Position numbers and translations under genes: made by a program. From a virus: 31,879 nucleotides of DNA. The notes beneath the pieces are model-generated. The model was not told the DNA's origin. It made no database searches and was given only the letters and a program-made list of their open reading frames with translations. Positions 19,166 to 31,323 of this stretch are shown one piece after another. Location of the stretch: positions 1-31,879 of IMG/VR virus record IMGVR_UViG_3300037258_000027. The stretch is one strand, 5' to 3'. The number at the start of each line of letters is the position of its first letter. The first letter of the stretch is position 1.

Positions 19166-19834
19166 ATGACAGCGCCAAATTACAGCGCTGCCGATTTTCT
19201 TCGGGCGTTCCAGGATCATCTTCCGACCGGGGCGGCGTGGCCGCGCGATGCGGACGCGGCGCAGACGCAATTCTTCGCTGCTCTGGTGCTGCAGTATGTC
19301 CGGCTGCATGGCCGATCGGTGAACCTGCTGAGCGACGCCTTCCCCGTAGCGCCGGTGGAACTTCTGCCCGAGTGGCAGAAGACACTGGGGCTACCCGATC
19401 CATGCGCCGGGCCATCGCCGACGCTGCAGCTGGAGCAGCAGCAGGTGAACGCCCGCTTCATCGCGAGCGGAGGCCAGTCGCGCGGCTACTTCGTCGCGCT
19501 CGCTGCCGCTCTTGGTTACACGATCACGATCACCGAATTTGCGCCGTCGCGTTTCGGCCAGCCGTTCGGCGCTCAATTCGGCGGCTCCGCATGGGCCTTC
19601 GCCTGGCAGATCAACGCACCGACTTTCACTGTCGAGAGGTTCACGTTCGGCCGCGATGCGTTCGGCGAGCCGTTTGCGCAGTGGGGCAACACCGTCCTGC
19701 AATGCGAAACCAGACGCCTCGCGCCAGCGCATACCACGCTGTTCTTCAATTACGGGACCGGCATGGCGATGGTGGATGAAGTCGGCGGGGAGATGTTCGA
19801 CGAAGCCGGCAACCTTCTCGACGTGGCAGCATAA
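19166..19834 (+). CDS. Baseplate wedge protein, Mu gp48 family (DUF2313/YmfQ)
   Basis: A 222-residue protein that starts MTAPNYSAADFLRAFQDHLP and continues GAAWPRDADAAQTQFFAALV, the gp48/YmfQ opening. Other conserved parts are LLPEWQKTLGLPDPCAG, VNARFIASGGQSRGYFVALA and YTITITEFAPSRFGQPFGAQ. The C-terminus (ARRLAPAHTTLFFNYG, with RRLAPAHT as the family end block) is followed by a short extension EVGGEMFDEAGNLLDVAA. The protein occupies the outer wedge and carries the tail fibre attachment site. The fibre cassette begins 12 bp downstream. Confidence 0.92.
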   Translation: MTAPNYSAADFLRAFQDHLPTGAAWPRDADAAQTQFFAALVLQYVRLHGRSVNLLSDAFPVAPVELLPEWQKTLGLPDPCAGPSPTLQLEQQQVNARFIASGGQSRGYFVALAAALGYTITITEFAPSRFGQPFGAQFGGSAWAFAWQINAPTFTVERFTFGRDAFGEPFAQWGNTVLQCETRRLAPAHTTLFFNYGTGMAMVDEVGGEMFDEAGNLLDVAA

Positions 19835-19845
19835 CGGGGCATGCA

Positions 19846-21426
19846 ATGCAGGCGATGACAGACCGTGCTGCCGGATGGGCAATGCGCACGCTGGCGGTGA
19901 CTGCCCTGTTGCTGTGGCTGCTGACGGACGGTGCTCTGGCGGCATGCAGTGGCTATGGGGGCGTGCCGTTCAGCTGCGATACGGGAAACACGCCGCAGGC
20001 CGGCGACTACGTCCTGGGTGGCAGCAACACGTCGCCGCAGGCCGGCAAAACGGTGCGGTGGACGTGGGGGCAGATGATCCAGATGGATCACTCCCTTTCG
20101 CCGGTCACGCCGGCCGGCGGTGGATCGGCGCAGACACTGGCGACGTGGACAGGATATCTGGCGGGACAGGCGAACCCGAATCCCCTCATCGCGACACAGT
20201 TTTCGGTCGACCTCGGCAATTACAGCGCGCCGGCGGATTATCCGGCGAGCATCACCGGCGCCGGGTTCGTCGGCGTGCGCGGCTCGCTTGGTGCAGCCGA
20301 CACGACCGCGACAGCCGCCGCGGTGTTCCAAAAGATCGCGACCGGCAACTCCAGCCTTGGCGTCGATCCTGCCTCGGCGGCGATCGCCATCAAAACGCTG
20401 GGCGGTCCAGCGTCGCATGTGACCGCCTCCTACTCCGCGGCACAGGACAATGCGCCGGGCTATACGATATCGAGCGGCGGCTACAACGGCTCGACCGGCG
20501 CGGTCACACTGACCTTGGCGTCATCGCCATCGCTGGCGGTGGGCGACGCGTTCGCGGTTCACGGGCTGACCGGCACGGGGGCCTTTGCCGATGCGGATGG
20601 CGTCTATTTCGTCGCCGGCGCAGGCACATCGGGCACCACGGTCGTTTATGCGATTGCGACCGGGCTGACGATGACCATCACCGGCGGCAGCCTGGCGGCC
20701 GGGGGGTCTTATACGCCCTACCTCGAGGCGGCGCGGGCGGACGCGACTCTTGCCGGCGGCGAGCTGGCGTCCGCCTATGGCATCGTGCCGCAGGCTGGCA
20801 CAAATGCCGGCGTCCCGTACTGGCAGTTGGTCGCGGCCGAGGGGACTATTTCAAACAACACGGACGATCCGCCGTTCGCGTTCAACATCAATCATTTCGG
20901 CGCGCCCTTCCTCGCGTCGTGTGAATATCAGGGCGTCAGCACCGGTCATTGCGCGGCGGCGGTGATGCTGAACCCGAATTCCGGCGGTCCGTTCTGGCGC
21001 GGGGTGTTGATACCGAGCGGGGCGCTGGACCCGGCCGGGACCGCGATGGAAGTGCGTGGACCGGTCAATATCGGCATCGACGTATCGCTGGCCGAGGACA
21101 TGTATGCCTCGGTGCTCTTGCCGAACGATACGCCGACCCGGGCGCTCAATGAGGCGGGATCCGCCGACTGTACGATCTATTATCTGGACGCCAGCGACAT
21201 CGTCAAAATCGGTTCCGACACCTGTTCCGCCGGCACGAGTATCGGTAACGGCACCAGTCCTGTGACCGTCAACGGGCCGCTGGCGGTGACCCAGATCGCC
21301 ACGTATTCCCCGGTCACCGCGCCCGCCGCGCCGGCCAGCGGTTACACGCTGTACGTCGATGTGGCGGACAACAAGCTCAAAGCCATTGCGTCCACCGGCA
21401 CCATCACCACACTGGCACTCCCTTGA
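19846..21426 (+). CDS. Tail-fibre-like protein with N-terminal export signal
   Basis: A 526-residue protein of the fibre region. The C-terminus (PAAPASGYTLYVDVADNKLK followed by AIASTGTITTLAL) is of a kind often found at the end of phage fibres, and the middle is beta-rich (TGAVTLTLASSPSLAVGD, TTVVYAIATGLTMTITGG). Unexpectedly, residues about 13-33 form a signal peptide: Arg near the start, a LAVTALLLWLL core, then GALAAC, which could be a signal peptidase I site (ALA) or a lipobox (LAAC). I considered whether the true start might be internal, but no downstream start has a better ribosome site; GGGG lies before ATG 19846. Whether the product is a virion part or an exported protein is open. 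Confidence 0.7.
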   Translation: MQAMTDRAAGWAMRTLAVTALLLWLLTDGALAACSGYGGVPFSCDTGNTPQAGDYVLGGSNTSPQAGKTVRWTWGQMIQMDHSLSPVTPAGGGSAQTLATWTGYLAGQANPNPLIATQFSVDLGNYSAPADYPASITGAGFVGVRGSLGAADTTATAAAVFQKIATGNSSLGVDPASAAIAIKTLGGPASHVTASYSAAQDNAPGYTISSGGYNGSTGAVTLTLASSPSLAVGDAFAVHGLTGTGAFADADGVYFVAGAGTSGTTVVYAIATGLTMTITGGSLAAGGSYTPYLEAARADATLAGGELASAYGIVPQAGTNAGVPYWQLVAAEGTISNNTDDPPFAFNINHFGAPFLASCEYQGVSTGHCAAAVMLNPNSGGPFWRGVLIPSGALDPAGTAMEVRGPVNIGIDVSLAEDMYASVLLPNDTPTRALNEAGSADCTIYYLDASDIVKIGSDTCSAGTSIGNGTSPVTVNGPLAVTQIATYSPVTAPAAPASGYTLYVDVADNKLKAIASTGTITTLALP

Positions 21427-21797
21427 TGACCAAATTCTCCGCATTCGTTATCGCCGCGCTGCTCGCGCCGGGCGCGGTGGCCCAGACCGCGCCGGCCGCA
21501 AGCCCGACGATGCACGATCTGCACCGCATGTATCTGGCCTGCGAGCAGCACCACCAGGTGCGGGCCGTGGTAACGGGACCGCCGGCGCGCTGGCAGGTCC
21601 ATTGGACCGCGTTGCCCACGTACGAGACGGACGGACCCTGGCATAACTGCCCCGCTGTGAAGGCGGCCTTCGAGAAGGCCGACCAGGCGCTGATTGCTCA
21701 GCGGCAAGCGGCCACGGCGCCGCAAAGGGCCGCGAGGGCGGCACAGGAATCCGCGCTGGAATCGGCAATCGGCACTTTCAGGGCGGCCGGTCACTGA
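21426..21797 (+). CDS. Small secreted protein of unknown function in the fibre cassette
   Basis: A 123-residue protein whose ATG overlaps the preceding TGA (TGATG), so it is probably coupled. A short N-terminus, a hydrophobic core (FSAFVIAALLAPGAVA) and then QTAP give a clean Sec-type signal peptide with cleavage at AVA-Q. The mature part has CEQHHQVRAVVTGPPARWQV, a Trp/His-rich segment with two Cys residues (LACEQHH and HNCPAV) that could form a disulphide, and a C-terminal helix (QAATAPQRAARAAQESALES). I recognise no family. The export signal and Cys pair suggest a periplasmic protein, perhaps a partner of the preceding product. Confidence 0.68.
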   Translation: MTKFSAFVIAALLAPGAVAQTAPAASPTMHDLHRMYLACEQHHQVRAVVTGPPARWQVHWTALPTYETDGPWHNCPAVKAAFEKADQALIAQRQAATAPQRAARAAQESALESAIGTFRAAGH

Positions 21798-21885
21798 AGG
21801 GATTCGGCAGCTCTCCGATCGAAGCGGCCACGATGCAAGCAGCCGTGCGCACGACGCGGCTTCTCTCAAGCCCCGAGGAATCAAG

Positions 21886-22887
21886 ATGGACCGCCTGATC
21901 GCCACGAATTCGGTTCCGTACGCGAACCGTGACGTCGCGCCCGTGAGCGGCACGCCGCAATATGCGACCGACGGCACCCCCGGCGTCACGCCTGCCACGC
22001 TCTGGCCGTCCTACGCATTCAATATGCTGCAAGACGAGCTGATGGCGGTCATCCTGGCGGCCGGGATCACGCCGGACGACACGAACTGGGGGCAGCTGCT
22101 CCAGGCCATTCGGACGCTCGGCCGCATCAAGCTCACGGGCAATCTCAACATTTATGTCGCAACCACAGGCAGCGACACCGCGAACACGGGCCTGACCTCG
22201 GGATCGCCTTTCGCGACCCTGCAGCACGCATGGGACGTGCTGGTGGCCGACTACGACCTGGGCGGTTATACGGCCACGATCAATCTGGCCGCCGGCACCT
22301 ACGCCGCAGGACTGACCGCCGCGCCGCCAACCGTCGGCGGCAGCGTCGTCGTTCTCGGCAATGCCGGTTCCCCCGGCACGGTCACGATCAGCGTCGCTGC
22401 CGGAAACTGTATTTCGATCCTGAACGGAGACAGCGTCACGCTCAACGGCATGACGTTGACCACGGCGGGCGGCTCGCCGAGCGCGTGTGTGAACGCGCAG
22501 AATGGTTCGACGGTGGCATTTGAGAACATCGTCTTCGGCGCGGCTTACTACCATCTGCAGGCCTCGATCGGGTCGCAGGTGGTTGCGATCGGGGACTACA
22601 CGATCTCCGGCAGCGCAGCGGGACACCTGCGAGGCCACGCCACGGGGGTCCTGCAGGCCAGCGGCGTTACCGTCACCCTGACTGGCACGCCCGCTTTCTC
22701 GGTCGCGTTCGCCATCGCGGACGAGTGCGGCGTGGTGGAGGCGACCTCGACCACCTTCACCGGGTCCGCGACCGGCGCGCGATACAGCGCCGTCCTGAAT
22801 GGTGTGGTTCAAACCAACGGCGGGGGCGCCACCTATTTTCCTGGCAGCTCAGGCGGCACCTCGGCAACGGGCGGCCAATACGCCTGA
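21886..22887 (+). CDS. Tail fibre / beta-helix receptor-binding protein
   Basis: A 333-residue protein starting at ATG 21886, with GAGGAA five bases upstream. Residues 1-85 look like a fibre attachment module (PATLWPSYAFNMLQDELMAV, LQAIRTLGRIKLTGNL). From about residue 95 the repeats of short beta-strands and small residues (GSVVVLGNAGSPGTVTISVA, GDSVTLNGMTLTTAGG, SGVTVTLTGTPAFSVAFA) look like a parallel beta-helix, as in pectate lyase and tailspike folds. The opening of the helix resembles the 'tGsDt..gl...spFaTlq.A' entry of tailspikes. No signal peptide is seen, unlike its neighbours, so this is the best candidate for a conventional virion adhesin. Enzymatic activity cannot be judged. Confidence 0.76.
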   Translation: MDRLIATNSVPYANRDVAPVSGTPQYATDGTPGVTPATLWPSYAFNMLQDELMAVILAAGITPDDTNWGQLLQAIRTLGRIKLTGNLNIYVATTGSDTANTGLTSGSPFATLQHAWDVLVADYDLGGYTATINLAAGTYAAGLTAAPPTVGGSVVVLGNAGSPGTVTISVAAGNCISILNGDSVTLNGMTLTTAGGSPSACVNAQNGSTVAFENIVFGAAYYHLQASIGSQVVAIGDYTISGSAAGHLRGHATGVLQASGVTVTLTGTPAFSVAFAIADECGVVEATSTTFTGSATGARYSAVLNGVVQTNGGGATYFPGSSGGTSATGGQYA

Positions 22888-22931
22888 TGCCGCAGCGTCG
22901 GCCGTCGTAACGCAATCCACGGGAACACCCG

Positions 22932-23387
22932 ATGTCAGGCTCTCTCCGCGGCGTCGTTGCCGATCTTGAGCCGATCTGGCTCAACACCAAGGCACCGGGC
23001 GAATCCCGCGGCTTCCCATTCGACATCTCGGCGCTGGTCGATCTCGCAACCGAAACCATCATAAGCCTGTCCGCCGAAGCGGCGCCGTCGGGCGATGGCG
23101 AGTTGCAGCTTTCCTCGGTCTCGCTGGCCGGATCCACGATAACGGTCGGAATCTCGGGCGGTCAGCCGACGCGCGAATATACGCTCCTGGTCAGCGCGAC
23201 AATGGCGGACGGCGAGGTGTTCGATTTCCTGGTGCGGCAGAAGGTCTCCGTGATCTTCGCCACCGATCAGGCGCCGGCCCCGCCATCGTGGGGTTTCGGA
23301 ACGCCGGTCACCTGGAATGCCGCCGCGATAATGGCACTCGATTACTCGCGTCCGCTCGGCAGCAGCATCGTCGCCGGTCTCCTTTGA
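22932..23387 (+). CDS. Small Ig-like protein of the fibre cassette
   Basis: A 151-residue protein with no signal peptide. It opens with SLRGVVADLEPIWLNTKAPG, continues with a strand-rich part (SVSLAGSTITVGISGGQPTR, then EYTLLVSATMADGEVFDFLV) and ends with PVTWNAAAIMALDYSRPLGS. The 'GGQPTREYTLLVSATMADGE' stretch resembles the Ig-like fold of many phage neck and fibre accessory proteins, where an 'sGG..G..Y.v...v.T..G' motif is common. The function is unknown. It is ten bases upstream of the next gene, so the two are very likely co-expressed. Confidence 0.66.
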   Translation: MSGSLRGVVADLEPIWLNTKAPGESRGFPFDISALVDLATETIISLSAEAAPSGDGELQLSSVSLAGSTITVGISGGQPTREYTLLVSATMADGEVFDFLVRQKVSVIFATDQAPAPPSWGFGTPVTWNAAAIMALDYSRPLGSSIVAGLL

Positions 23388-23396
23388 GGTAGCAAC

Positions 23397-23879
23397 ATGA
23401 CGGCACAGGTCAATGTTTCCGGCCGCGATGGTGGGAGCAACCCGATCACGTTGCGCGCAGAGCAAGCGAGCGACTTTTCCCTTGCGATGCACCACGTCGT
23501 CGAAGTTGCGGGCGCGCCCGCCGCGGCCGGCAATGAGCTATCGGTGAAGTTGACGCCGGTCGCGACGGTTGGATCGGCGGCGCTTGAGAATTTCCATGTC
23601 CTCAAGGCTGCAGCGGGCACGCTCTACGCGGTCAACTGCAACGCGACCCAGACCGGATACGTCATGCTGTTCGACGCCGCCGGGGTGCCAGGCGACGGTG
23701 CCGTTACGCCGCGCAAGGTGTGGTTCTATTCAGCGGCGACGCAGCAGACGATCGACAAGGCCTTCAATCCGCCGCTGGCGATGGCGGCCGGGGCGGTCCT
23801 GGTGTTCAGCACCACGGGGCCATTTACCAAGACGACGCCCGGCAGCGGAGCCGCCCAGTTGTCGGGAGAGATGGCATGA
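23397..23879 (+). CDS. Beta-sandwich virion accessory protein
   Basis: A 160-residue protein without an export signal. The C-terminal two-thirds has a recurrent module of alphaproteobacterial phages: AAAGTLYAVNCNATQTGYVM, then FDAAGVPGDGAVTPRKVWF, then PPLAMAAGAVLVFSTTGPFT. I recall the last block (VFSTTGPFTKT) as common among such phage proteins but have no named family for it. The fold is predicted to be a beta-sandwich. The stop overlaps the next start (ATGA at 23876), linking it to a signal-bearing protein whose C-terminal domain has a similar strand rhythm. Confidence 0.65.
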   Translation: MTAQVNVSGRDGGSNPITLRAEQASDFSLAMHHVVEVAGAPAAAGNELSVKLTPVATVGSAALENFHVLKAAAGTLYAVNCNATQTGYVMLFDAAGVPGDGAVTPRKVWFYSAATQQTIDKAFNPPLAMAAGAVLVFSTTGPFTKTTPGSGAAQLSGEMA

Positions 23880-24496
23880 AGAAATGGCTGTTGGCGGCCG
23901 TGTTCCTGGTGACGCTGCCGGCCCTCGCCTGGGCGTATCAGGAGTATCAGACGCAAGGCGGTCAGGCCGTGGGCGCGGCGGTGCTGATGTGGATCAACGG
24001 ATCCAGCCAGGCCGTCCCCGCGAGCGCATCGACGCAACTGCCCACCCAGGACAGCGCGGCTGAAGGTTCTCTCAGCACAATCGCCAGCAGCCAGGGATCG
24101 TCCGCCACCGGCATTTCTCAGCCCGCCGGCGGATCGGGCATCCTCGGGTGGCTCTCCGGGATCTACAAGGCCGTCACCGGCACCCTCACCGTCGCTACCT
24201 TTCCCGGCGGCGTCACCTCGACCGAGGCGAATGGCACGGTCGCGACGGGGGGCACCTATCAGCTCGTGTTCGCCGCGTCGGCTGGGCGCAAGGGGTGCCT
24301 GATCCAGAACACCAGCACGCACACCGGGTATGCGGCGCTTGCGAGCGGCGCACCTTCGGCGGGTTCCTATATCGGATTTCAGGTGCGCCCGAACGGCGGC
24401 ACTTTCGACTGCGCACACGGCGGCGTCGTGGCGACGGACAACGTCTGGTACACCACGCCGGTGACCGGCGATCCGTTGGTGGACGCCGTGCAATGA
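23876..24496 (+). CDS. Exported fibre-cassette protein with GILGWL linker
   Basis: A 206-residue protein starting with a textbook Sec signal: MKKWLLAAVFLVTLPALAWA, cleavage expected at AWA-Y. The next part is low in complexity (NGSSQAVPASASTQLPTQDS), followed by GGSGILGWLSGIYKAVTG, a motif I associate with alphaproteobacterial phage fibre-region proteins. The C-terminal domain (TYQLVFAASAGRKGCLIQNT, then AGSYIGFQVRPNGGTFDCAHGG) is a beta-sandwich resembling phage decoration domains, with one possible Cys-Cys pair. It is coupled by ATGA overlaps both upstream and downstream to the SGNH hydrolase gene, so the three products are likely made in proportion. Confidence 0.66.
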   Translation: MKKWLLAAVFLVTLPALAWAYQEYQTQGGQAVGAAVLMWINGSSQAVPASASTQLPTQDSAAEGSLSTIASSQGSSATGISQPAGGSGILGWLSGIYKAVTGTLTVATFPGGVTSTEANGTVATGGTYQLVFAASAGRKGCLIQNTSTHTGYAALASGAPSAGSYIGFQVRPNGGTFDCAHGGVVATDNVWYTTPVTGDPLVDAVQ

Positions 24497-25809
24497 GCCG
24501 AATTCTTCTTCCGCGGCGCCGGTTGCTGCTGGGCGGCACGGCGGCATTGTGTGCTCCCGCGATCCTCCGCGCCCAGACGCTCGGACCTGGCGCGCCGGCA
24601 ATTCCCGGCATCGTGCCATCCAACCGGTTTGCGCTTCGGCTGCGGTCGCACTGGCCAGCAGCGGTCCCGAGCGCCGGCGTCGCAAATTCGACGCTCTACA
24701 CGCTCGAGGCCGCGCCGAGCTGGGTGAGGTTCGTGTTCACCAACGACGAGACCTCGCCAATCACTGTGTCCGGGGCAGCCGTGGCGCTCAGCAGCACCGT
24801 CAACGACGGCTACACGCCGACGGACCAGACCGGCACGCCGAACACCGCGCTGTTTCAGCCGGTCACGTTCGCGAACCTCGGGGCATCGGTCGATCCGCAG
24901 TTTCAGCCCGGCGGCACGACGCCCTCGATTGTCCAGCGGCCCAACCCCGGCGAGGTCGGGTATCGGCCCAGCCAGATGGTCTCGGATTGGGTCCAGTTCC
25001 GGACCCCCAACCCGCGCACCGACGGCGGGGCGGGCGCTCTTCTCATGTGCCGGACCCTCGGGGCCCTGACTGGCCCCGGCTCCGCCGCAGAGGAAACGCA
25101 GCTCGCCGCCCTGGGCCGAACCCTCGCCTGCTACAACACGTCGTCGAATGGCGCCGCGGCGGTTGCGTCCCCGTTTAGCTTCGCGGGCGCGACCCTGGCC
25201 TACAACACGTCGCCGTTCCAGGTCGATTACATCGCGGCAGCGAGCGGCGCGACCGTGATGGGATGCGGCGACAGCATCGACGATAATTGTGCCAGCTACG
25301 TCAACCAGGCCTGCTTCCGGATCAGCACCCCGGCCTATCCGGTCTCGCCGATCGGGGACAACCGGGCCGGGTCCCAGACCTGGAATTTCCTCGCGACCGG
25401 CTCGGCGATGTTGCAGTCCGACATGCCGATCCGGTGCGTGGTCATCGAGGTATTCAGCCGCAACGACGGCTCGCCGGCAACCCAGGCCCTCGCGGCCGGC
25501 GGCTGGAACGCCGCCATGGCGCTGGCCGACCAGGCGCAGCGGATGGGGGTCAAGGTGATCCTCTGCACGACCGCGCCCTACTACTACAACGACTCATCGA
25601 GCGAGACGTGGCGCGTCTGGTCGAACGGGATGGTGCGGGGTTCCGGCTACCCGTTCCTGGACCTCGACGCGGTGTGGGGCGCGGGCACGAATCCGAATTC
25701 GTACCAATCGCAATTCAACTCCGGCGACAACACGCATCCGAACATGACCGGGCTGAGCGCGGCCTCGATCGTGTTGGCGCCAATCCTCCAACAGGTTCTG
25801 ACCGCGTGA
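24493..25809 (+). CDS. SGNH/GDSL-type esterase with Tat-like signal peptide
   Basis: A 438-residue protein. The leader PRRRLLLGGTAALCAPAILR has the twin-Arg plus hydrophobic look of a Tat signal, with cleavage likely near LRA-Q. Residues about 250-438 carry the SGNH blocks: GCGDSIDD (nucleophile Ser 261), a Gly in IGDNRAG (288), Asn 324 in FSRND, and D-x-x-H in GDNTHPN (Asp 412, His 415). Such enzymes remove acyl groups from polysaccharides or cell-wall sugars. The N-terminal 230 residues are beta-rich (ATLYTLEAAPSW-like, VRFVFTNDETSPITVSG) and may be a binding domain. It starts by ATGA overlap with the previous gene. It could modify the host surface in the lysogen or act from the virion. Confidence 0.82.
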   Translation: MSRILLPRRRLLLGGTAALCAPAILRAQTLGPGAPAIPGIVPSNRFALRLRSHWPAAVPSAGVANSTLYTLEAAPSWVRFVFTNDETSPITVSGAAVALSSTVNDGYTPTDQTGTPNTALFQPVTFANLGASVDPQFQPGGTTPSIVQRPNPGEVGYRPSQMVSDWVQFRTPNPRTDGGAGALLMCRTLGALTGPGSAAEETQLAALGRTLACYNTSSNGAAAVASPFSFAGATLAYNTSPFQVDYIAAASGATVMGCGDSIDDNCASYVNQACFRISTPAYPVSPIGDNRAGSQTWNFLATGSAMLQSDMPIRCVVIEVFSRNDGSPATQALAAGGWNAAMALADQAQRMGVKVILCTTAPYYYNDSSSETWRVWSNGMVRGSGYPFLDLDAVWGAGTNPNSYQSQFNSGDNTHPNMTGLSAASIVLAPILQQVLTA

Positions 25810-25817
25810 GGCGCACG

Positions 25818-27056
25818 ATGAAGAAGCTCGCATTCCTGCTGGCCGGTGTGGTCGGGCTAGCCTCGCCGGCACTCGCCCAGCAATACAACCAGGGCAGCCC
25901 CTACAACGTCCAGACCCAATTCGGGCCCCCGCAGGTGTTCAGCGGCGCCGGAAACTTCACCCTCAACTTCACCGGCACACATTGGCTGCACGCTGTCCTG
26001 TGCGGCGGTGGTGGCCCCGGGGCATGGGGTGGCATCGTGGCCGCGAGCGGCTCCGGATCGGGCGGCGGTGGCGGCGGCGGTGGTAGCTGCATCCCGATCG
26101 ACGGCCCGCTGAGCCAGAGCAACGGCCAATCGGCGTTCGAAGGGCAGGCCTACGCGACCGTCGTCCTAACCGCAGCCTCGGTGGGGGGCACCCAAGCGAC
26201 GCCCGGCGGCTCAGGGGGAGGCACTAGCTCGCTCGCTCAGTTCCAGGTCAGCGGTGCGCCGACCATCGTCGCAACGGGCGGAAACTCGGGATCCCGCGGC
26301 CAGAATGGCGCCGGGTCGGGCGGCGGCGGCGGCGGGGGCGCCTGGGGCGGCTCAGGCGGCAACAGCGGCTCTGCGGCCAGTGGCGCGACCGGTGGCGGGG
26401 GCGGCTCGCCGGGCGGTGGGGCCGGGGGCAGCGCCGGAGCCGGCAGCTACCCATCGCTCAACTTCGCCGGGGCCGGGGGCGCGGGCACGGGTGCGACCGG
26501 GACCGCTGCGGCGGGGATTTGGAACACCTTCGGGGGTGGTCCAGGGGGAGGCTCCGGGGGCGGCTTCGCATCCGGGAACGCGACCAATGGAGGCCAGGGC
26601 GGCCAGACGCCCGTCGCTCAGTACGGGGCGATCACTGGTGGCATCGAGGGGATCAATGGGTTCCTCGGCCCGGCACCTCCGGGATCGGGTGGCGGCGGCG
26701 GGAATGCTTCCGCGACCGCCAGCGGGGGCGCGGGTGGGACCGGGGCCTACGCGGCTGGCGCCGGCGGTGGCGCGGCGGCGATCGCCGCCGCAGAGCCGAC
26801 CCAGTCCGGGTCCGTGTCGGGTGGCAACACCCTGACCGTCTCCTCCGCGACCGGCATCACCAATGGGATGTATATCTACGACCTCACCACCCTGAGCGCG
26901 ATCCCGAGTGGCACAACGATCACGATCTCGGGCACCACCGTGACCACGTCCGCGACCGCGACCAGCGCCAACGGCGATACCCTGGCGTTCTCGGCCTACC
27001 AGCCCGGCAATGGCGGGAACGGCGGCGGCTCGGTCCTCTACGTCTGGCAGTGGTGA
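25818..27056 (+). CDS. Exported glycine-rich fibre/adhesin protein
   Basis: A 412-residue protein starting at ATG 25818 with GTGAGG upstream. It opens with a clean Sec signal (MKKLAFLLAGVVGLASPALA, cleavage at ALA-Q), followed by a short beta region with FSGAGNFTLNFTGTHWLHAV. From about residue 55 to 310 it is extremely Gly-rich (GSGGGGGGGGS-type runs, GAAGGSAGAGS). Polyglycine-II-like adhesin domains of T-even gp38 type and fibre Gly-rich modules look like this. The C-terminus (SGGNTLTVSSATGITNGMYI) returns to beta structure and ends GSVLYVWQW. The 'WLHAVLCGGGG' opening is typical of the Gly-rich fibre domain. The export signal on such a protein is unexpected. Confidence 0.73.
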   Translation: MKKLAFLLAGVVGLASPALAQQYNQGSPYNVQTQFGPPQVFSGAGNFTLNFTGTHWLHAVLCGGGGPGAWGGIVAASGSGSGGGGGGGGSCIPIDGPLSQSNGQSAFEGQAYATVVLTAASVGGTQATPGGSGGGTSSLAQFQVSGAPTIVATGGNSGSRGQNGAGSGGGGGGGAWGGSGGNSGSAASGATGGGGGSPGGGAGGSAGAGSYPSLNFAGAGGAGTGATGTAAAGIWNTFGGGPGGGSGGGFASGNATNGGQGGQTPVAQYGAITGGIEGINGFLGPAPPGSGGGGGNASATASGGAGGTGAYAAGAGGGAAAIAAAEPTQSGSVSGGNTLTVSSATGITNGMYIYDLTTLSAIPSGTTITISGTTVTTSATATSANGDTLAFSAYQPGNGGNGGGSVLYVWQW

Positions 27057-27109: not shown

Positions 27110-27310
27110 ATGACGACGCCAGGCGAACCGGTCGATCGACCGACCGCGGAAGAGGTCGCATACCTGCGCCAGCAATATGAGGCATACCGGACGGGCCGCT
27201 GGATCCTGCTGTGGGTGTACCGAGGAGCGGTGGGAATCGGCATGCTCGCCGGCGCCGTCATCACCGTGTGGACCCTGTTGCGCATGACCGCGCCTCTGCA
27301 CCAGCCATGA
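27110..27310 (+). CDS. Small single-TM membrane protein upstream of endolysin
   Basis: A 66-residue protein with a short charged N-terminus (PTAEEVAYLRQQYEAYRTG), then one hydrophobic segment (ILLWVYRGAVGIGMLAGAVI) and a short tail. GAGGA precedes the ATG at 27110. The stop overlaps the endolysin start as ATGA, so it belongs to the lysis unit. It could be a pinholin, an antiholin or an inner-membrane spanin. None can be chosen from sequence alone, because the only visible helix precedes the coupling site. Confidence 0.62.
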   Translation: MTTPGEPVDRPTAEEVAYLRQQYEAYRTGRWILLWVYRGAVGIGMLAGAVITVWTLLRMTAPLHQP

Positions 27311-27984
27311 CGGCCGCGCTCGCCGAAATGGCGACGGCCGCCGGCGCACTGGCCGCCGATCAGCTTGCCGCCGCAATCGGCGCTGCCGCACCTCACCTGA
27401 CGCCGGACGCGGTCGCAACATGGGCGCACGCCTTCGCCACGCCGGCGTGTAGTTCCGGCATCGTCGGGCCGCGCCGCGTCGCGATGTTCATCGGCCAGGT
27501 GTGCGAGGAGAGCGGCGGCCTGTCCGTGCTGGTGGAAAACCTTGATTACACGGCCGAGAGATTGTGCCAGGTCTGGCCGTCGCATTTCCCGACGCTCGCC
27601 TCGGCCGAGCCTTATGCGCACCAGCCGGAGCAGCTCGCGGATTGTATTTATGCCGGCCGCCTGGGCAACGGACCGGCCGGCAGCGGTGATGGCTGGCGCT
27701 TCCGCGGCGAGGGTCCGATCGAGCTGACCGGTCGCGGGCTCATCTCGCAATTCGCCGCGGCGTTTAACATGTCGCCGGATCAGGCGGCAGCGTGGATGCT
27801 GACACCGCCTGGCGGCGCGGCAGCGGCATGCTGGTACTGGACGTTGCCCGCCCACCCCCGGTCGCTCCTGGCGCTGTCCGACACGTGGGACGTGGCCGGG
27901 GTGACCCGGATCATCAACGGCGGCCTGATCAATCTGAATCGACGTGAGGCGCTGTGCACGGCCGCGCTGCGGGCTGTCAGCTAA
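27307..27984 (+). CDS. Endolysin, GH19 chitinase-like lysozyme
   Basis: A 225-residue muralytic enzyme. RVAMFIGQVCEESGGLSVLV (residues about 57-76) carries the family's catalytic Glu in EESGG (Glu 68), and ENLDYTAERL follows. RFRGEGPIELTGRGLISQFA (131-150) matches the conserved 'RGRGLIQLTGR' block, and the C-terminus AGVTRIINGGLINLNRRE is the usual end. There is no signal peptide, so release depends on a holin. The overlapping small TM gene upstream and the TM protein downstream at 28097 complete the lysis set. Confidence 0.92.
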   Translation: MTAALAEMATAAGALAADQLAAAIGAAAPHLTPDAVATWAHAFATPACSSGIVGPRRVAMFIGQVCEESGGLSVLVENLDYTAERLCQVWPSHFPTLASAEPYAHQPEQLADCIYAGRLGNGPAGSGDGWRFRGEGPIELTGRGLISQFAAAFNMSPDQAAAWMLTPPGGAAAACWYWTLPAHPRSLLALSDTWDVAGVTRIINGGLINLNRREALCTAALRAVS

Positions 27985-28668: not shown

Positions 28669-29160
28669 ATGCGACGCTTCGTTGCTATCGCTTCCGCGTG
28701 CCTGCTTGCCGTTGGCTTGGCCGCGTGCAGCACCAGCACCACGCCCGCCAGCAGCGCGCCCGTCGCGCCGACCGCAGTCGCCACAGCGGTTCAGACCCTC
28801 CTCGCTGCGGACATCGCCCAGATGCTCCAGGAGGCCAACGCCGCCACCCCGCCGGACATCCAGGCGATCAACTGCGCGACCTTTCTCCAGACCAACATGA
28901 ACGCGCTCAACGGCCAGTTGGGCGCGATGCAGAAGCCGGCCGGCATCCTGTCCGCCCTGGAAGCCGGGAACCTCGCGCTGAGCAACGCCGCCAACGGTCT
29001 CAGCCCGGCGATGCGGACCGCGGCAGAAAATGCCTGCGCACCGTACGCGCAGCACATCGTGGGCAACGGTCTGACCGTCGCGCAGGACATCGCAGCGATC
29101 CTGGCCCCGCTGGGGGTGAAGATCGCGGTACCGGCGACGATCCCGCTGCCTGCCATCTGA
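28669..29160 (+). CDS. Predicted lipoprotein downstream of lysis genes
   Basis: A 163-residue protein with a signal sequence and lipobox: MRRFVAIASACLLAVGLAAC, with Cys 20 as the lipidation site. AAGGAG lies at ideal distance from ATG 28669. The mature part is Ala/Thr-rich, then helical (IAQMLQEANAATPPDIQAIN) with three Cys residues and a C-terminal APLGVKIAVPATIPLPAI. Its location after an endolysin and a holin candidate raises the option of an outer-membrane spanin, but it is longer than typical ones and no inner-membrane partner is certain. It might equally be a lysogenic conversion lipoprotein that blocks superinfection. Confidence 0.76.
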   Translation: MRRFVAIASACLLAVGLAACSTSTTPASSAPVAPTAVATAVQTLLAADIAQMLQEANAATPPDIQAINCATFLQTNMNALNGQLGAMQKPAGILSALEAGNLALSNAANGLSPAMRTAAENACAPYAQHIVGNGLTVAQDIAAILAPLGVKIAVPATIPLPAI

Positions 29161-29265: not shown

Positions 29266-29895
29266 ATGCTCGATCCGTTGTTGCTTCCCCTCGCTCTCGC
29301 CTCCCAAGCCACATACGCAGGAGGCAGGCCGTGGTTCGTCAACGAGACCAACACCTGTCAGGTGTTCAAATCCGCGGTGAACGATCATCCCTGCTACGCG
29401 TTCGAAGGAACTTCCGACTGGCAGGAGTGGATTGTTGATTTCTTCGCGCTCGACGTGAGGTTCTACCAACACCCCAAGGCCGGCCCTGTGCATCTCGGCT
29501 TCTGGCTGGATATCGCCGATGCGGTGCGATTTATCGCCGCTGACCTCATTTCCATCGGCAGGCCGGGATTCTACATCACCGGGCAGTCGAAGGGTGGTGG
29601 GGAAGGCGTCCTCTGCCACGCCGAACTGAAGTCGCTCGGACTTACCCCATTGGCCACGCGAGTCTTCGAACCTCCGAAGGTCGGGACCAGCCAGCTATCC
29701 AGCTATCTCGCAGGGGATGACATCGGGTGGACGCAGACCTTCAACGCCGAAGGATCGGACCTCGTTACTCAGGTACCACCCTGGCCGGAATGGTGTCACC
29801 AAGGCAGAGTGACCCGGCTGCAGGTACCGGACAGCTATGGTATCCGAGCGAAGCATGTGGTGGGGGCGCAGGTGGAGGTGTTGCAGGTGGGATGA
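29266..29895 (+). CDS. Class-3 lipase-like alpha/beta hydrolase
   Basis: A 209-residue protein starting at ATG 29266, with GGGAGCG upstream. The nucleophile elbow is ITGQSKGGGEG (Ser 108), preceded by the family's VHLGFW oxyanion block (75-80) and a helix leading to it. A catalytic Asp is likely in EGSDLVTQVPP (Asp 165) and the His in AKHVV (197). This fits lipase_3 enzymes. Two or more Cys residues (TCQVF, HPCYAF) may pair. It has no clear signal peptide. Third codon positions are somewhat less GC-rich than in the tail genes, which suggests a separately acquired cargo gene. Its substrate is unknown; an acyl ester of lipid or cell envelope is the likeliest class. Confidence 0.82.
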   Translation: MLDPLLLPLALASQATYAGGRPWFVNETNTCQVFKSAVNDHPCYAFEGTSDWQEWIVDFFALDVRFYQHPKAGPVHLGFWLDIADAVRFIAADLISIGRPGFYITGQSKGGGEGVLCHAELKSLGLTPLATRVFEPPKVGTSQLSSYLAGDDIGWTQTFNAEGSDLVTQVPPWPEWCHQGRVTRLQVPDSYGIRAKHVVGAQVEVLQVG

Positions 29896-30692: not shown

Positions 30693-30721
30693 TGACAGAA
30701 TGTATCCTGTAGAATACAAAT
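30693..30721 (+). promoter_or_regulatory. Predicted promoter of toxin-antitoxin operon
   Basis: TTGACA (30693-30698) and TACAAA (30716-30721) are separated by 17 bases, a sigma70-like arrangement. It lies just before the toxin start at GTG 30727, so the transcript could be nearly leaderless. A palindrome fills the spacer. Confidence 0.55.
30701..30718. promoter_or_regulatory. Palindromic operator for antitoxin autorepression
   Basis: TGTATCCT and AGAATACA are inverse copies with one mismatch around a GT centre. The site overlaps the region between the -35 and -10 boxes, where a bound HTH antitoxin would block RNA polymerase. This is the usual autoregulation in HigA/HI1420-type systems; binding here is inferred. 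Confidence 0.55.
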
Positions 30722-30726
30722 GGGTT

Positions 30727-31023
30727 GTGATCGACGTGCGCAGAACCGACGCGTTCGCTGCCTGGATCGCGAGACTACGCGACCGGCAGGCCCGGGCCCG
30801 CATCGAGATCCGGATCGTCCGGCTCGCGAACGGCAACGCGGGTGACGTCAAGCCGGTCGGCGAGGGCGTGTCGGAGCTGCGGATCGACTATGGCCCGGGC
30901 TATCGGGTCTATTTCGTCCGCCGCGGCGCGGCTGTGATCGTTCTGCTGGCCGGTGGCGACAAGGGCAGCCAACCCCGCGACATCCGTGCTGCCCTCGCCC
31001 TCGCCCGCGAATTGGAGGAATGA
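30727..31023 (+). CDS. RelE/HigB-like toxin (HI1419 / addiction module killer family)
   Basis: A 98-residue toxin from GTG 30727: the start VIDVRRTDAFAAWIARLRDR matches the family's usual 'MIEVRrTe.F..Wl..LrDr', while an upstream ATG at 30700 would add nine atypical residues and lies inside the promoter/operator. Conserved blocks are ARIEIRIVRLANGNAGDVKP, VGEGVSELRIDYGPGYRVYF and IVLLAGGDKGSQPRDI. These toxins are ribosome-dependent mRNA endonucleases of the RelE fold. The cognate antitoxin gene begins four bases past the stop. It lies outside the phage attachment site, so it belongs to the host or another element. Confidence 0.9.
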   Translation: MIDVRRTDAFAAWIARLRDRQARARIEIRIVRLANGNAGDVKPVGEGVSELRIDYGPGYRVYFVRRGAAVIVLLAGGDKGSQPRDIRAALALARELEE

Positions 31024-31026
31024 CCC

Positions 31027-31323
31027 ATGGCTACCAGAATTTCCCCTTGGGAACCGACCCTCGATACTGAAGCCGACGTCCGCGCGTTCCTCGACGCGGC
31101 GTTCGATGATGGCGATCCCCAGACCATTGCGTCGGCCCTGGGATGGGTCGCGCGTGCCCGCGGTATGGCCAAAATTGCGGAAGCCGCCGGTCTAGGCCGG
31201 GAAAGCCTCTACAAGTCCCTTTCGGAGGACGGCAACCCACATCTCGCAACGGTGATCAAGGCCATGCGGGCCCTTGGCTATCGGCTGGCGCTGGCCGATG
31301 CTCGGCCTGGCGACCAATCATAG
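31027..31323 (+). CDS. HTH antitoxin (HI1420 / addiction module antidote family)
   Basis: A 98-residue antitoxin with GGAGGA eight bases upstream. DDGDPQTIASALGWVARARG is followed by the DNA-binding helix-turn-helix AKIAEAAGLGRESLYKSLSE and by GNPHLATVIKAMRALGYRLA, the full signature of the HI1420-type family. It neutralises the toxin encoded just upstream and probably represses the operon at the palindrome in the promoter. The toxin-first order is typical of this family and of HigBA. Confidence 0.93.
   Translation: MATRISPWEPTLDTEADVRAFLDAAFDDGDPQTIASALGWVARARGMAKIAEAAGLGRESLYKSLSEDGNPHLATVIKAMRALGYRLALADARPGDQS

Follow-up and report, generated by a model that had tools for sequence, protein, structure and literature searches.

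We analysed a 31,879-base IMG/VR virus record (IMGVR_UViG_3300037258_000027, possibly a fragment; hereafter the window), in which five of the eight genes between gpI, the last baseplate gene, and the endolysin gene carry Sec- or Tat-type signal peptides as predicted by a rule-based scorer, compared with none of the 23 head and tail genes upstream. Judged from these sequences, the five products are very probably truly exported, four via Sec (one perhaps lipid-anchored) and an SGNH enzyme via Tat. They may well be accessory, receptor-directed proteins that act in the periplasm or in the lysate, with the virion spike specified by a separate, signal-less set, 21886-22932-23397 (genes are named by their start positions). 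The window is a contractile-tailed phage of acetic-acid-type bacteria. Its gene order runs from terminase (Pfam TerL), portal, tail sheath and a tape measure with tail lysozyme to baseplate J and gpI, followed by the fibre region, the endolysin, a lipoprotein and a toxin-antitoxin-like pair; this gene content marks a contractile-tailed phage, and the nearest tail relatives of gpI are found in Acetobacter prophages (about 37-43%) and a Telmatospirillum metagenome-assembled genome (53% over part of gpI). Codon-usage gene calling gave exactly eight genes between gpI and the endolysin, all of them real, which are given here with their two borders.

19166..19834, + strand: gpI-type last baseplate/tail gene without signal peptide, bordering the region on the left; related genes in 11 viral contigs and 3 genomes
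19846..21426, + strand: putative exported fibre-like protein, 526 amino acids, Sec or lipoprotein signal (LAAC), from signal scoring and sequence patterns
21426..21797, + strand: predicted exported small protein, 123 amino acids, 2 Cys, TGATG-coupled to 19846, from signal scoring; no family match
21886..22887, + strand: probable virion spike, non-exported, with a conserved tail-fibre N-terminus and a repetitive body; PHROG tail-fibre matches, directly 3' of gpI in relatives
22932..23387, + strand: non-exported fibre-tail adaptor of the Gp77 type (PF23148, E 5e-12, above the cut-off)
23397..23879, + strand: non-exported small protein, probably beta-rich, ATGA-coupled to 23876, from codon-usage gene calling; no family match
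23876..24496, + strand: predicted exported small beta-domain protein (labelled here the 'QNTS' family), Sec signal, conserved Cys pair; 12 exported members
24493..25809, + strand: predicted exported SGNH esterase, twin-arginine-type signal; blocks GDSI, SRND and DNTHPN, and a fold match
25818..27056, + strand: predicted exported glycine-rich adhesin-like protein, Sec signal, 2 Cys; composition resembling L067:8541
27307..27984, + strand: endolysin without signal, right border of the region (phrog_181, E 1.3e-48)

Export was called where an n-, h- and c-region and a cleavage site were present at a plausible start. The scorer returned 2 calls among 101 spurious open reading frames, none at 100 internal Met positions and 2 among 196 head and tail genes of 16 phage loci. 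At a rate of 2%, the chance of at least five signals in eight genes is P = 1.6e-7, and the enrichment over the upstream genes gives Fisher P = 3e-4; we rejected chance hydrophobic N-termini as an explanation because these false-positive rates are too low. The N-terminus of 19846 reads ...MRTLAVTALLLWLLTDGALA^AC and also fits a lipobox (LAAC), and the remaining signals are MTKFSAFVIAALLAPGAVA^QT for 21426, MKKWLLAAVFLVTLPALAWA^YQ for 23876, MSRILLPRRRLLLGGTAALCAPAILRA^QT, of the twin-arginine type, for 24493 and MKKLAFLLAGVVGLASPALA^QQ for 25818. The start of 19846 possibly lies at 19855 or 19882. For 24493 the codon-usage caller favoured a downstream TTG; the ATGA-coupled ATG yields the full twin-arginine signal, which resembles a host Tat signal (L047:4767, 57% over 37 residues). 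Overlaps couple 19846 to 21426 (TGATG, 21424-21428), 23397 to 23876 (ATGA, 23876-23879) and 23876 to 24493 (ATGA, 24493-24496). The sequence-only reading, which had described a receptor-binding region right after the last baseplate gene with five export signals, one possible lipobox, coupling overlaps and an esterase, was borne out in each of these respects.

The signal is best conserved in the family of 23876, which a profile search detected in 9 of 299 Acetobacterales genomes, 1 of 385 class-wide sampled genomes and three viral contigs, with some weak genome matches left aside; none was found in INPHARED, and a profile search of the PDB gave no meaningful match. Twelve members carry a signal peptide (the window, L050, L051, L052, L053, L054, L065, L066, L067, L068, L069 and L070). 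Among six aligned domains, that of the window shares 34-43% identity with the others, and two Cys are among the few invariant residues, whereas two non-exported relatives in phage-like contexts (L065:14131, with no Cys and adjoining a capsid gene, and L072:9219, with one) lack the pair. The structure model of 23876 is of low confidence (pLDDT 46). In most loci a neighbour of the 23876-like gene is predicted to be exported as well. This neighbour encodes an SGNH protein in L050 and L065 (the corresponding signal in L051 seems degraded), a spike-like protein of 571 residues in L054 and a protein of 169 residues in L053, while L067-L069 have both a glycine-rich protein and one of 80 residues. The glycine-rich product of L067 matches a minor tail protein (phrog_356). 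We considered whether it copies the tip of the virion fibre and rejected this, as the fibre C-terminus of L067/L069 differs from that of L068 while the exported proteins are 88-94% identical. Conserved signals in other phages, on which the sequence-only reading had placed weight, were therefore seen for the 23876 family and for the SGNH partner in L050 and L065, but not for 19846, which has no homologue in the 299 Acetobacterales genomes or INPHARED. A further small exported protein (L066:8307-8696 and L067:8314-8556, with a CTAPC motif in L067) is common to two different phage-like elements and adjoins 23876-like and lysis genes.

The cysteine content of the exported proteins follows the same line. 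An even-Cys bias is a recognised sign of disulfide formation in exported proteins, and all 21 exported phage proteins examined contain Cys, with an even number after the predicted cut in 19 and an odd number in two, one of which is truncated at a contig end. The 194 non-exported head and tail proteins comprise 54 without Cys, 62 with an even and 78 with an odd number (even versus odd, exported versus non-exported, Fisher P = 8e-5). With one protein per family the bias is 10 of 12 (P = 0.014); both P values are indicative only, because the sets are not fully independent. The induced phages phiAO1 and phiAX1 (see below) later yielded three more exported proteins, two with an even count (2 and 4 Cys) and one with an odd count (1). 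A constant presence of Cys, mostly in even number, is the pattern that periplasmic disulfides would produce.

The three remaining exported proteins of the window are less readily placed. Single-sequence searches of viral contigs gave no close relatives of 19846 or 24493, Pfam/PHROG-type profile searches gave no significant family match for any of the five exported proteins, and defence models matched none of them. The labels 'fibre-like' for 19846 and 'adhesin-like' for 25818 derive from sequence patterns. The former has a fibre-like C-terminus (YTLYVDVADNKLK) and six Cys past the ALA, one of which would be the lipid anchor if the protein is a lipoprotein. The likeness of 25818 to the exported glycine-rich protein L067:8541 is based on composition and not on alignment; it has no Pfam match, including to Gly_rich_2 (PF21722), the family matched by the non-exported fibre L068:9971.

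The catalytic blocks of 24493 (GDSI for Ser, SRND for Asn and DNTHPN for Asp-x-x-His) identify an SGNH esterase, and this is confirmed by its AlphaFold model, which is low in confidence overall (pLDDT 43, pTM 0.48) and better in the catalytic half; the best Foldseek match is the carbohydrate esterase PbeAcXE (E 3e-8), alongside many SGNH enzymes. Homologous SGNH units without a signal occur in a 702-residue prophage fibre gene (L079/L034), in L080 and in Gordonia phages, so that 24493 appears to be a virion-type enzyme provided with an export signal. Among its signal-bearing relatives, that of L050 matches head decoration proteins (phrog_9703, phrog_20658) and that of L065 a tail protein (phrog_15881) as well as Pfam GDSL. 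SGNH/GDSL esterase domains are known from tailspikes, fibres and proteins of structural clusters, for example in the L079 prophage, in Gordonia phage Kewpiedoll (gp25) and in Arthrobacter phages; like 24493, these have a homologous SGNH unit within tail or structural clusters, but the SGNH proteins of L079 and Kewpiedoll have no signal peptide.

The arrangement of the region suggests how the exported genes came to lie there. In 12 relatives the homologue of 21886 starts 3 or 11 bases 3' of gpI, and in L066 it likewise follows within a few bases, whereas in the window 2,051 bases separate the two genes and are occupied only by the exported 19846 and 21426. Since gpI is directly followed by 21886 in these 13 relatives, 19846 and 21426 represent an insertion at that site. 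The exported 23876, 24493 and 25818 lie between the signal-less genes 21886-22932-23397 and the lysis genes. A complete virion spike set thus seems to be present without signals, and the exported genes would be additions around it. The usual view is that tailed phages make and mount their fibres in the cytoplasm, and we agree with the sequence-only reading that export would be unexpected for them. That reading is right that five proteins carry signals, but the virion's own set is present without them, and the exported genes look like separate modules inserted around it. We also rejected the idea that export is general for the fibres of this phage type, as relatives such as L007-L011 and L015 have fibres without a signal in this position. 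Taken together, the signal conserved in the 23876 family, the even-Cys pattern and the insertion of exactly two exported genes make export likely.

Elsewhere, exported genes are located after the portal gene (L051, L065), after a capsid gene (L052), before the expected tape-measure region (L050), beside a lysozyme gene (L066) or on the strand opposite to the neighbouring head genes (L054). The pair of a 23876-like and an SGNH gene is found again, elsewhere in the genome, in L050 and L065/L051, which, together with the opposite-strand pair of L054, indicates moron-like behaviour. A terminase-to-lysis element (L067-L069, L073, L075, L076) without visible integrase or replication genes occupies one chromosomal site in three species. 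For its exported genes, dN/dS is 0.07-0.10 (glycine-rich and QNTS genes) and 0.24-0.33 (80-residue protein), which shows that they are kept by purifying selection; in the more distant comparison the fibre genes and the exported genes both have raised dS, linking the latter to the receptor-binding module. The divergence of this element resembles that of the flanking host genes, with strong purifying selection, and it is possibly gene-transfer-agent-like or domesticated. A second phage-like element with a contractile tail and lysozyme (L051:5190-19501, L065:5641-19501 and L077:1-13804) also has no visible integrase, and its flanking host genes are alike in two species.

Signal-bearing spikes also occur in induced phages. 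In L006, phiAP1 and phiAO1 a short fibre gene of 188-208 residues, which has no signal, precedes a separate gene for a spike that is conserved in its N- and C-terminal domains and diverges between them. The spike signal is intact in L006 and phiAO1 (PhiAO1_380), while in the phiAP1 record signal and body are in different frames, and phiAP1_570 was deposited with a start downstream of the signal; phiAX1 carries another exported fibre-like protein (PhiAX1_440). The host of phiAO1 is Acetobacter orleanensis NBRC 3170 and that of phiAX1 is Acetobacter sp. ATCC 21760. In phiAP1 (L081:8998-9166, LC644972) the frame break relative to L006 lies at a short G run and might be a sequencing error, a real inactivation or a variable tract. 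All six phages of the original study came from mitomycin-induced particle fractions, with phiAP1 reported as infectious and phiAO1 and phiAX1 predicted to be incomplete; we found no analysis of virion proteins there (PMC8566455). The deposited start of phiAP1_570, and the rule-based nature of our predictor, would fit signal-like N-termini that are non-functional, reflecting internal starts or merely hydrophobic fibre N-termini. We regard this as very improbable, given the conservation of the signals across divergent relatives with signal-peptidase-like sites, the low false-positive rate, the even-Cys bias and the retention of the signal region by codon usage in four of the five window genes.

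As the main rival reading, virion appendages might mature outside the cytoplasm: the proteins would be exported, would fold and form disulfides in the periplasm and would join the particles as lysis lets these pass, so that the virion would gain part of its receptor-binding set only after export. Relatives of the exported proteins match head-decoration and tail PHROGs, the exported genes lie within clusters of head or tail genes, and in three species they are retained under purifying selection in particle-like elements that lack an integrase, where they share a raised dS with the fibre genes. The best argument for such maturation is the mosaic of the L006/phiAO1 spikes, shared by phiAP1, whose conserved ends and divergent centre are usual in virion spikes. 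Nevertheless, we consider it rather unlikely: no tailed phage maturing its fibres in this way was met in the open-access literature searched, and, as the strongest counterarguments, the window seems to hold a complete signal-less spike set, and phiAP1 was reported infectious although its spike signal is out of frame (PMC8566455).

If the exported products are accessory proteins, the five would be made late, alongside the virion genes; we infer this timing from their operon position and translational coupling. Their signals would be removed and their disulfides formed in the periplasm. The small beta domain, the glycine-rich and the fibre-like protein would then bind host-surface polysaccharide and the SGNH enzyme would de-esterify it, acting from the periplasm or after lysis has freed them. 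The likely benefit would be to block reinfection by sibling phages, or to keep new particles from adhering to dying cells and debris. Three observations weigh against this reading: 24493 has an odd number of Cys (7), the spike mosaic described above resembles that of virion spikes, which favours attachment to the virion, and no dedicated outer-membrane secretion signal was seen, which leaves surface action before lysis unexplained.

The sequence-only reading had also proposed that a lysogen decorates its surface with these proteins, and surface proteins for superinfection exclusion or adhesion could indeed help a prophage carrier. Known exclusion proteins often have a lipid or membrane anchor that keeps them outside the cytoplasm or, as with Glo of K139, are periplasmic (PMC3952083), which would suit the lipobox of 19846; the pair of L054, moreover, is oriented against its neighbouring head genes. 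The proposal is weakened by the position of the genes in a late operon and their translational coupling with late genes, and a search with the sigma-70 consensus only gave no promoter-like site on the + strand between 19100 and 29300; we therefore judge it improbable.

Downstream of the region, the window encodes a sixth predicted exported product, identified by signal scoring and codon-usage gene calling.

28669..29160, + strand: putative lipoprotein near the lysis genes, MRRFVAIASACLLAVGLAA^C (LAAC)

Lipoproteins recur in these phages (the window, L006:17101, L051:11243, L065:11143 and L084:44759), mostly near lysis genes and several with twin-arginine-type signals, and are possibly spanins or exclusion proteins. 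After the lysis genes, 29266-29895 has a GQSKGG motif and a borderline Lipase_3 match (E 3e-4, just below the cut-off), and 30700-31323 holds a toxin-antitoxin-like pair of a Gp49/RelE-type protein (E 8e-5, just below the cut-off) and an HI1420-type antidote (E 3e-24).

Exported phage proteins as such are not new. Llp of T5 and Cor of phi80 are exported exclusion proteins, and Glo (K139, periplasmic) and Ltp (TP-J34, a lipoprotein) are, like the window set, phage-encoded, exported and envelope-acting. Glo and Ltp are small dedicated exclusion proteins, with Ltp in a lysogeny module, whereas the window set comprises several spike-, adhesin- and esterase-type proteins among late tail genes. Exported endolysins (Lys44 of fOg44 and the SAR endolysins; PMC6116005) are likewise late phage proteins that use the host Sec pathway, but they are lysis enzymes, and the endolysin of the window has no signal. 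Phages are thus known to use host export, but none of the systems compared here (Glo, Ltp and exported endolysins) is a spike/adhesin/esterase set among late tail genes. The phage phiAP1 is close to the window's Acetobacter relatives; phiAO1 and phiAX1 have spike- or fibre-like genes with signal peptides, as does phiAP1 with its signal out of frame, but these spike families differ from those of the window and were annotated as 'hypothetical', with export unremarked (PMC8566455). Papers on phages of acetic acid bacteria gave nothing relevant on tail fibre, secretion or virion terms, and no description of signal-bearing fibre genes was found in the open-access literature, an absence that is weak evidence as subscription papers mostly lay outside the search.

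The sequence-only reading had called the set a new type of phage cargo or fibre system. Its signals look real, but it is not a one-off: a dozen or more phages or phage-like elements, almost all from Acetobacterales, have exported proteins of this kind, and phage annotation overlooks exported spike- or fibre-like proteins. The culturable vinegar bacteria offer a test, as their induced phages phiAO1 and phiAX1 carry such genes. It is doubtful, though conceivable, that part of the receptor-binding apparatus of Acetobacterales tailed phages matures outside the cytoplasm, with spike and decoration proteins being secreted, gaining their disulfides in the periplasm and joining the particles as these leave, perhaps even in particle-forming elements that are inherited vertically. 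The recurrent exported, Cys-paired spike- and esterase-type proteins would constitute either such a new assembly route or a new extracellular phage cargo, the latter consisting of soluble proteins that block receptors and of enzymes that modify them, set free with the burst.

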